Source: Lentisphaerae bacterium GWF2_50_93 (GTDB taxonomy: Bacteria > Verrucomicrobiota > Lentisphaeria > Victivallales > GWF2-50-93). From it: a DNA stretch of 64,000 bases. Below are positions 17,723 to 60,756 of the stretch, piece by piece. How positions within the stretch are numbered: position 1 is the stretch's first letter; each line of letters opens with the position of its first letter. The notes beneath the pieces are model-generated. The model searched no databases, had not been told where the DNA came from, and worked only from the letters and a program-made list of their open reading frames with translations. Both the position numbers and the translations under genes were made by a program. Location of the stretch: NCBI GenBank assembly GCA_001804815.1, contig MHBI01000099.1, positions 62,001 to 126,000 on the forward strand, read 5' to 3'.

Positions 17723-17890
17723 TGTCGGGTTTTAACCCGACACTTGGTTGGCGGTTTAAAAACCGAACGCTATGGTCTCCCACCGCGATCCTCGCGGTTG
17801 GGAATCCTGTTATCATTATTTTGATTGTTTCCCGGAAGTAGCACAAGCCTCCGCCTTGTATCTTCTTGCCATTTTCTTCCTTCTTTAAAG
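17723..17890. repeat. REP-like cluster (families D and F, first copies)
   Basis: GTCGGGTT-TT-AACCCGAC (17724-17741) and GGCGGTTT-AA-AAACCG are two hairpins found again at 44963-45035. The next about 115 bp (17773-17890, from GGTCTCCCA through GGAAGTAGCACAAGCCTCC) match 60030-60150 at most positions, including the AAGTAG-footed hairpin. Confidence 0.75.
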
Positions 17891-18042
17891 TAGAGCCCGT
17901 CCACAAAAACAGTTTTTTGTGGATTTGATTTCATCAAAGTCATCCGGGCTCTTAAAAAACTCCTCACTTTGATGCGGTAAATTATTTTTCTCTTCTCTCG
18001 TTAGGATTTTTTTACTTTCCATGGATTTTGGGCGCGAGTTTA

Positions 18043-58348: not shown

Positions 58349-58618
58349 ATGGCGACGCTGCAGGTGAGATCGATTGATGACAGGCTTTACAAGGCCCTTG
58401 GAAAGCGCGCCCATATGGACAACCGTTCGATAAGCCAGGAGGTTGTGATGATGATCAAACAATATCTTTCAAATACAGATTCAAATTACAGACGAAAGTC
58501 TGACGCGCTCCTTGAACTTGCAGGTTCTTGGGATGATGGAAGGTCTGCCGAGAAGATCATTGGTGAAGCCAGGAAGGCAAGAAAGAATTCTGCCTTAAGG
58601 TTCACCGGGAAAATTTGA
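58349..58618 (+). CDS. Arc/FitA-like antitoxin
   Basis: 89-residue antitoxin of the ribbon-helix-helix type: MATLQVRSIDDRLYKALGKR and NRSISQEVVMMIKQYL form the DNA-binding part. The Lys/Arg-rich C-terminus covers the PIN toxin. Its gene precedes the toxin by one base. It should repress the module through an operator upstream of 58349. Confidence 0.83.
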   Translation: MATLQVRSIDDRLYKALGKRAHMDNRSISQEVVMMIKQYLSNTDSNYRRKSDALLELAGSWDDGRSAEKIIGEARKARKNSALRFTGKI

Positions 58619-58619
58619 C

Positions 58620-59027
58620 ATGTATCTCCTTGACACCGACACAATCATATACTTCTTCAAAAATGATGCTGCCGTAGTTGCCAATTTCAGGCTTCATGAC
58701 GATTCTCCCAAGGCGATTTCCGTTATAACCTATGCTGAACTCCTCTATGGCGCTGAAAATTCAGAGAGGCGCAATGAAAATATGGCAAGGATCCACAGGT
58801 TCTGCGAACTTGTTCCTGTCATTGATGTGACTAGAGCTGTCATGGAGACATTCTCTTCTACTAAGCTCTCATTAAGGAAATCCGGAAAGCCCTTGGATGA
58901 CTTTGATCTCGTAATCGCGTCAACTGCTATCACTCTTGGTTACTCTATTGTCACAAACAATGTCAGGCATTTTAGCAGGATACGTGGGTTGAAGACGGAA
59001 AACTGGAAAAATGAAGCAATTTCCTGA
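58620..59027 (+). CDS. vapC: VapC-type PIN ribonuclease toxin
   Basis: 135-residue PIN-domain toxin. The acidic site is visible: YLLDTDTIIYFF (Asp5), ITYAELLYGAE (Glu43) and DDFDLVIASTAI. It would cleave tRNA or another RNA when not bound by its antitoxin. The last 17 bases overlap the start of the radical SAM gene, so that gene may be read from the same transcript. Confidence 0.87.
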   Translation: MYLLDTDTIIYFFKNDAAVVANFRLHDDSPKAISVITYAELLYGAENSERRNENMARIHRFCELVPVIDVTRAVMETFSSTKLSLRKSGKPLDDFDLVIASTAITLGYSIVTNNVRHFSRIRGLKTENWKNEAIS

Positions 59028-60018
59028 CAAAGGAATGAAACGATTCAAGCGGATCTATGTCGAGATCACCAGCGCCTGCAACCTGAGCTGCTCTATCTGC
59101 CCCGGAACAAGCCGGAACAAAAGCTTCATGGATCCTGGGGCGTTCGATGAGATCCTCAGAAAGATCAGGCCTTTCACAGACTACCTTTATCTCCATGTCA
59201 TGGGCGAACCTCTCGTGCATCCGCGTTTCCCGGAGATCCTGGATATCTGCGACAGGCATGGATTCAAGGTCAATGTCGCGACGAACGGTGTACTGATACG
59301 GAAGCATATGGATGCCCTGCTCAAATCAAAATCCGTCAGGCAGATCAGCTTCTCGATACACTGCCTGGAGATACAGAGGAATACCGAGATTCCTGCGGGA
59401 TATCTTGAGGACATCCTTGAGTTCATCGACGAAGGAAGGAAAAAGACAAAAATTATTTTTGCCTTCCGCCTGTGGAACATGAAGCCCGGAACCGAACCGG
59501 CTCCAGGTCTGACCACGAGGATCGAAAAATTCTTTTCGCTTCCGCAGAAGATCATGGACATTAAGATCGAAGGGAAGGGGATTGAGCTTGCGCCAAGGGT
59601 GTTCCTTAATTTCGGCGAAGAGTTCGCCTGGCCGGATCAGGATTCAGGCCTTCCAGAGGAAAAGGGATTCTGCAGGGGTCTGCGCGACCACTGCGCGATC
59701 CTCGTCGACGGCACCGTAGTTCCATGCTGTCTTGACAAGGATGCGGCTATTCCGCTGGGTAATATCTTTGATTACAATCTTAAGTTTAGCAGATGTAGGG
59801 TTGTCCGTCCCGGACAAGTCGTTCGGGAGCTGGATGCAGAGTTGTCCGTCCCGGACAAGGGAGAAGAGAACTCTTCGCCGGGACGGCGAACACTACATCA
59901 GATTATAGAAGGGGAAAGGGCGGAAGGGATAATCAAGGGTTTTTCCGAAGGCCGTGCGGTCGAGAAATTATGCAAGACCTGCGGATTTCGCAAGAGGTTC
60001 AACAGATTCAAGGATTGA
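59011..60018 (+). CDS. Radical SAM/SPASM protein carrying an in-frame REP-like insertion
   Basis: 335-residue radical SAM protein. The [4Fe-4S]/SAM motif is CNLSCSIC near residue 24, with the following PGTSRNKSFMD and YLYLHVMGEPLVHP being typical of one COG0535 subgroup. A C-terminal SPASM-like region has Cys in CAILVDGTVVPCCLDKDA and KLCKTCGF. Between IFDYNLKFS and IIEGERAEGII lie 36 residues encoded by REP-like units (59792-59899). Removing these 108 bp would join the gene as LKFS-K-IIEGERA, a smooth match to relatives. The substrate is unknown. Start at 59011 or the Met at 59035. Confidence 0.83.
   Translation: MKQFPDKGMKRFKRIYVEITSACNLSCSICPGTSRNKSFMDPGAFDEILRKIRPFTDYLYLHVMGEPLVHPRFPEILDICDRHGFKVNVATNGVLIRKHMDALLKSKSVRQISFSIHCLEIQRNTEIPAGYLEDILEFIDEGRKKTKIIFAFRLWNMKPGTEPAPGLTTRIEKFFSLPQKIMDIKIEGKGIELAPRVFLNFGEEFAWPDQDSGLPEEKGFCRGLRDHCAILVDGTVVPCCLDKDAAIPLGNIFDYNLKFSRCRVVRPGQVVRELDAELSVPDKGEENSSPGRRTLHQIIEGERAEGIIKGFSEGRAVEKLCKTCGFRKRFNRFKD
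59792..59899. repeat. REP-like cluster (family G) inserted in a coding sequence, 108 bp
   Basis: Three units: GATGTAGGG-TTGTCC-GTCCC-GGACAA (59792), GATGCAGAG-TTGTCC-GTCCC-GGACAA (59833) and, inverted, GTAGTG-TTCGCC-GTCCC-GGCGAA ending at 59899. Ends are GATGTAG...CTACATC. The length is exactly 36 codons. A single-unit pair of the same family is at 60438-60501. Confidence 0.85.
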
Positions 60019-60029
60019 GTGAACGACTA

Positions 60030-60352
60030 AGGTCTCCCAGCGCTATCCTCGCGGTCGGGAGCAGCAATCTTGTTATCAGTATTTTGATTATTTCCCGGAA
60101 GTAGCACAAGCCTCCGGCTTGTATTCTTTTGCCTTTTTCTTCTTTCTTAGAAGTAACACAATCGTCCCGATTGTGGAATTGAATACTTCCGGATATTATT
60201 TATTCTTAAATTTTAAATCAATCCTAATCACAAGCCGGAGGCTTATGCTACTCCTAAAAAATACGTTGCACGAAAAGGGGGTAACGCGGACATTCCTGTC
60301 TGCGATTGAAAATGAAATTTGAATCCACAGACAGGAATGTCTGTGTTACTTT
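60030..60352. repeat. REP-like cluster (families F and I)
   Basis: 60030-60150 matches 17773-17890. AAGTAGCACAAGCC-TCC-GGCTTGT and the inverted ACAAGCCGGAGGCTTATGCT enclose about 110 bp. GTAACGCGGACATTCCTGTC and ACAGACAGGAATGTCTGT are an inverted pair with complementary stems; AAAATGAAATTTGA and CAAATTTCATTTT form another around them. Confidence 0.75.
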
Positions 60353-60437
60353 TCAAGACAAATTTCATTTTGAGATTACCTTTTAGGGGAGGCTCTAACT
60401 ACAAACAAATGCATTGACTAGGTGAAGGAGTATCTTG

Positions 60438-60501
60438 AATGTAGAGTTGTCCGTCACGGACAAGAGAAAAAGAACTCGTCTGGGACAGACGACACTACAT
60501 C
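60438..60501. repeat. REP-like inverted pair (family G, copy 2)
   Basis: ATGTAGAG-TTGTCCG-TCA-CGGACAA and, inverted, GTAGTG-TCGTCTG-TCC-CAGACGA. The ends match the in-gene copy at 59792-59899; the stem bases differ but both pair. Confidence 0.8.
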
Positions 60502-60756
60502 AGGAAAGGAATCAAGATTCTTCGCCGAGACCCCAGTCATTCGACGGGGCGGACGGCGAACCCTGCATTAAACAAACGCCAGCGCTCCGTCTTGCTTCGT
60601 AATTCGACTTGTCCTGAGCTTGTCGAAGGATTGTTCGTAATTCGATTCTTCCTTTGTATCTGCTCCAGTTGAAATCGTGGATTCATGCCATATCTTTTAA
60701 GTTGATGTCCACGAACGGGAAACCGATGATCCACAATATGAAATCCGGAGGAAATG

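Follow-up and report, generated by a model that had tools for sequence, protein, structure and literature searches.

An in-frame GTAG REP insertion in a radical SAM gene of a Lentisphaerota bacterium

Introduction

GTAG and CGTC REPs have been described within open reading frames (ORFs) of several species (Di Nocera et al. 2013, PMC3733652). These intragenic REPs occur mostly as dimers or groups and encode 20-30 amino acids (PMC3733652). The highest number of intragenic GTAG REPs was found in Opitutus terrae (Verrucomicrobia, PVC), where both uvrA genes carry double insertions (PMC3733652). At roughly one position, the recB genes of X. campestris and X. oryzae contain REPs that differ between the two species (PMC3733652). 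Rickettsia palindromic elements (RPEs) were first reported as ~150 bp elements, each encoding a conserved peptide (reviewed in PMC10969869). REPINs have been described as extragenic (Bertels and Rainey 2011, PMC3116915).

We analyzed a 64,000-nucleotide stretch of DNA (the window) with a REP cluster in frame inside a radical SAM gene. Like the intragenic GTAG REPs of PMC3733652, the inserts described here are short GTAG-footed palindromes in genes of a PVC host, mostly as dimers or groups and sometimes with a second insert elsewhere in the gene. They differ in repeat family and in phylum, which here is Lentisphaerota. Compared with the earlier cases, insert-free homologues are documented here across many genomes, and sister species have independent families in the same genes. 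In-frame GTAG REP insertion is already known, and the Lentisphaerota case adds to a recorded kind. A sequence-only reading of the window had regarded REP-type in-frame inserts in a PVC-like bacterium as new, which the 2013 catalogue with its top GTAG count in Opitutus terrae contradicts (PMC3733652). Its assignment of the host to the PVC group was correct, as a family-level relative (G005) matches contig DYRX01000227.1, deposited as Victivallis vadensis (Lentisphaerota). Within one open library, nothing on REPs in Lentisphaera was found.

The locus shares with RPEs the presence of dispersed palindromes in frame in unrelated genes (PMC10969869), and the insert keeps the frame of a conserved gene whose orthologues lack it. 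Unlike RPEs, the Lentisphaerota family is rarely intragenic and has no conserved peptide, with a single intragenic insertion whose two REP units are in different frames. The inverted REP doublet as a unit, tandem clusters and Y1 transposases in the genome are features in common with REPIN/RAYT systems, from which the family differs in that no transposase gene was found flanked by it (PMC3116915). Palindromic amphipathic repeat coding elements are likewise protein-coding palindromic repeats; they are described as intragenic and tandem with a defined amphipathic pattern, in contrast to the dispersed intergenic REP found here (PMC2996958).

Results

The host gene is located at 59035..60018 on the plus strand and encodes 327 aa from its likely start. 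The ORF opens at 59011, and translation probably begins at 59035 (MKRFKRIYVEIT), the start used by the orthologues. Pfam recognizes a Radical_SAM domain (8e-13) and a SPASM domain (2.5e-8) in the protein, and the CX3CX2C motif of the class is present together with the SPASM domain. Every cysteine invariant among 13 aligned homologues is kept in the window protein. The nearest solved relative is BtrN, and the BtrN alignment is continuous through the insert site. Directly upstream (58349-59027) lies a toxin-antitoxin pair with a FitA-like ribbon-helix-helix protein and a VapC-type PIN protein, and the earliest potential start codon of the radical SAM ORF falls within the end of the PIN gene.

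The REP cluster covers exactly 108 bp at 59792..59899 (plus strand), with GATGTAG at 59792-59798 and CTACATC at 59893-59899. The frame of ORF 59011-60018 crosses the cluster with zero stops and would encode RCRVVRPGQVVRELDAELSVPDKGEENSSPGRRTLH, the edge codons being common with the host. Three hairpins at 59801-59817, 59842-59858 and 59874-59890, each with a perfect 7-bp stem, have GTAG, GCAG and CTAC feet in that order. The cluster is made up of a single 41-bp REP unit (59792..59832, plus strand), in which the GTAG foot and first hairpin are followed by ~14 bp beyond the family profile, and a 67-bp inverted REP doublet (59833..59899, plus strand), in which the GCAG foot and second hairpin are joined by a linker to the third hairpin and the CTAC foot. 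The coordinates, ends, length, hairpin number and open frame given by the sequence-only reading were all exact. The arrangement is that of a GTAG-class REP, with 2 nt separating the GTAG (once GCAG) foot from a 7-bp stem that closes a 3-nt loop. The 108-bp strand folds better than shuffled sequences by 4.3 s.d. as RNA and 4.5 s.d. as DNA; because of this and the many related copies (32-33 BLAST places, 41 profile copies), the hairpin cluster is not due to chance. No credible Rfam match was found near the element.

Further repeats follow downstream of the gene. A doublet at 60438..60501 (plus strand, intergenic), which had been noted as a sibling, indeed belongs to the same family with a profile score of 43.5 bits. 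A partial copy at 60508..60568 (plus strand, intergenic; 16.3 bits) has one lengthened arm (CCCCAGTCATTCGACGGGG). The intergenic stretch just downstream of the gene (60066-60380) contains two additional palindromic families (AAGTAGCACAAGCCTCCGGCTTGT, GTAACGCGGACATTCCTGTCTGCG), and a near copy of its first palindromic stretch is located at 17803-17892.

The segment is absent from 12/12 homologues of relatives (37-66% identical), and 80/80 homologues from named genomes, including one whose contig is that of a relative found earlier, span the insert site without it. Together with the repeat family and the open frame, these absences give good support to the earlier proposal of an in-frame REP-type insertion; a conserved 36-residue segment, which would have spoken against it, occurs in none of the 12 and 80 homologues. 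The expectation that orthologues lack exactly 36 residues was right about the absence and wrong about the figure, which is 38 in the alignment. With the 108 bp deleted, the gene is still two codons longer than nearly every relative (the extra lying in DYNLKF), so the orthologues lack ~38 residues rather than 36. At the junction, the window protein with the element removed has GNIF-DYNLKF-SK, compared to GNIF-ADDF-SK and similar sequences in relatives. The excess of two codons could mean either that the insertion did not simply add 108 bp or that another indel took place.

The AlphaFold model of the host protein has a pLDDT of 79 and a pTM of 0.81. Values below 50 are found only at residues 248-283 and the last five residues, with the insert at residues 253-288. 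The sequence-only reading had anticipated a loop at this position, and very low confidence is essentially restricted to the insert. The model fits a floppy loop, with the caveat that this stretch lacks aligned homologues, a condition that in itself tends to lower pLDDT.

The doublet, two inverted REPs as one unit, is the common unit of the family. BLAST recovered 33 places in the window's genome (G000; 120 contigs, 91% complete), 2, 8 and 3 places in three same-genus genomes, and zero places in nine genomes of other genera. The doublet at 59833-59899 is matched by 27 intergenic regions in a 1.65 Mb sample of G000, and a profile search of 1.76 Mb of G000, including the neighborhoods of the BLAST places, retrieved 41 copies. 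The copies have sharp ends ([G/A]ATGTAG...CTACAT), conservation is confined between these ends, and the flanks are unrelated. The 28 full doublets span 57-110 bp. The stems are preserved through compensatory changes, since 58 of 62 hairpin units pair at 7/7 positions with six different Watson-Crick stems. Dispersal also conforms to the GTAG class, with 33 places genome-wide and 41 profile copies, mainly intergenic. Only one insertion into an ORF of at least 120 aa was found among ~41 copies, although ORFs cover 88% of the sampled G000 DNA, a contrast suggesting that insertions within genes are for the most part strongly selected against. An open frame combined with a length that is a multiple of three was found in 21/168 copy-frame combinations (~12%), so in-frame survivors are expected without a special mechanism.

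Y1_Tnp domains were matched 17 times in G000 and 12-20 times in the sister genomes. In the 91% complete assembly of G000, none of the 17 places is flanked by this REP family, and GTAG hairpins belonging to other families flank some of them. At the transposase loci examined in relatives, the family is not adjacent either, the sole match being ~1.4 kb off and beyond another gene. Because no Y1 transposase gene found in G000 is flanked by the family, we classify the repeat as a REP doublet and not as a proven REPIN.

Orthologues of the radical SAM gene in two same-genus genomes carry in-frame palindromic inserts at a different position, near residue 178. The insert in G003 (GGGCGGACATTCCTGTCCGCC...AACGCGGGTTGGAAAACCCGCG) is of a type found at 55 places in that genome, and the insert in G001 (GAACGCGGCAGCAGAGTGCCGCGGCTA...TAGCCACGGCACTCCGCTGCCGCGTTC) at 48 places. 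They belong to different dispersed palindromic families (L012:2078-2180 and L013:2036-2120). The orthologue on L012 also has an additional C-terminal tail (AGTPRHHDGVLAVLRMH).

Two other genes of G000 contain comparable inserts. The GT9 heptosyltransferase recognized by Pfam at C53:152898-153863 (L167:12898-13863) has a 29-aa REP insert. G002 has a precise empty site in this gene (HFK-IPVKFILGP uninterrupted), and in G003 the same site is empty while the gene has its own palindromic insert elsewhere (GGGFSNPPKANLNGGLESPP). The ketoacyl synthase at C99:10728-12179 (L089:10728-12179) contains four tandem in-frame REP/palindromic units. At that place, the G003 gene has one unit of the family of the G000 copy and a second family, and the G002 gene has segments of yet other families. 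The GTAG...CTAC core differs at ~1/52 bases between G000 and G003, against 44% at host synonymous sites, which suggests re-insertion or conversion of the core rather than simple inheritance. Estimates of dN/dS are 0.08-0.09 downstream of the ketoacyl synthase insert and ~0.15 for the heptosyltransferase. As judged from these ratios, insert-carrying genes of the genus appear to be under strong purifying selection, on divergence that may partly predate the inserts. For the radical SAM host gene, synonymous sites are so close to saturation that dN/dS says nothing about the period after the insertion.

These inserts were surveyed as ORF segments recurring between genes, by comparing ORFs with intergenic DNA in 1.65 Mb of G000, a design that favors in-frame cases. 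This search replaced a strict k-mer search for repeats within ORFs, which was too insensitive. Matches set aside include ORFs with starts called too early, Rhs-like proteins and, as a guess from position, pilin-like N termini; an antisense duplicate (C10) was dropped. Also dropped was C87:92412-93650, a Y1 transposase ORF running through a REP into thiamine-phosphate-synthase-like sequence, which probably represents two genes joined by an open REP. A helicase-like protein (C92:16049-18505, minus strand) and an esterase-like protein (C10 ~62849-64832, minus strand) contain short in-frame segments of the ATCCATCCAATCATCC and GGAGATTTGGAGATTGG types, which are non-palindromic direct repeats also found intergenically. 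Sampled DNA of G000 (1.65 Mb) and G003 (0.8 Mb) provided 231 reciprocal orthologue pairs with at least 55% identity. After removal of one antisense duplicate, nine distinct gaps of at least 10 aa were found, of which five are dispersed repeats, in three genes. The radical SAM pair falls below the identity limit and lies outside this count.

Discussion

We consider it highly probable that the segment arose by in-frame insertion of a dispersed GTAG REP element into a permissive loop of the SPASM region. A GTAG-footed, REPIN-like REP doublet with one extra REP unit would have entered the loop that follows the cysteine strand-turn (CCLD...LGNI) and precedes the final helices of this region. Being divisible by three in length and free of stops in the frame used, the element is likely translated as an unstructured 36-residue loop, with the conserved C-terminal cysteine motif retained. 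The protein seemingly tolerates the addition. The family probably spread through the genome with the help of REP-associated Y1 transposases acting in trans, a mode of movement that we infer because the repeat belongs to the REP class. Selection would purge most insertions in genes, and the intragenic survivors should therefore be in-frame ones in permissive loops.

A recent insertion, harmful or neutral, could instead have hit a gene that had become dispensable and is heading towards loss, in which case the open frame would be luck. The three hairpins are perfect, as in a young copy, and open in-frame placement is not rare. Yet the frame, the start region and every invariant cysteine have been preserved on either side of the insert, and same-genus genes with similar inserts are under strong purifying selection, even if their divergence may partly predate the inserts; we regard decay of the gene as unlikely. 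An insert retained for some benefit, either of the added peptide or of an mRNA hairpin that regulates expression, would explain why same-genus orthologues of the radical SAM gene also have inserts. The inserted families, sites and peptides vary by species, though, a pattern more in line with permissive loops than with a selected function, and we regard usefulness as improbable.

Strong RNA hairpins might also allow the segment to remain untranslated, through RNA removal or through ribosomes skipping the hairpin. Ribosome skipping has been reported for mitochondrial byp elements. Neither an open frame nor frame-keeping would be needed for skipping, whereas inserts in three genes and several species have both (in an ORF-biased survey), and we find such an escape from translation very improbable. 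The draft status of the genome raises the question of an assembly artefact, given 120 contigs and a repetitive element. An erroneous join across a repeat would bring unrelated flanks together, whereas here both flanks are one gene joined in frame and similar inserts occur in separately assembled sister genomes, so that an artefact is extremely improbable. An ancestral coding segment that merely resembles the repeat is refuted for practical purposes, as no homologue has the segment and its DNA matches dozens of intergenic copies. Insertion of a dispersed REP element into a permissive loop remains our preferred explanation.

The recurrence of inserts in other genes and in sister species raises a broader idea. 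In this Lentisphaerota genus, several unrelated palindromic families might keep inserting in frame into the same tolerant genes, be the main source of large protein-length changes between sister species and provide a natural map of permissive loops. We put this forward tentatively and rate it at clearly less than an even chance. A description of unrelated families reusing the same genes in sister species was not found in one open library, where recB provides a precedent (PMC3733652).

Palindromic insertions that are probably translated are here seen again outside the intracellular Rickettsiales, and the Opitutus case is extended to a second PVC phylum. Annotation and protein-modelling pipelines should flag segments of this kind as repeat DNA. 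Since sister species have different repeats in shared genes, and one gene offers a precise empty site, the frequency with which REPs enter genes can be addressed. The same material allows asking which loops tolerate REPs and how much protein-length change results.
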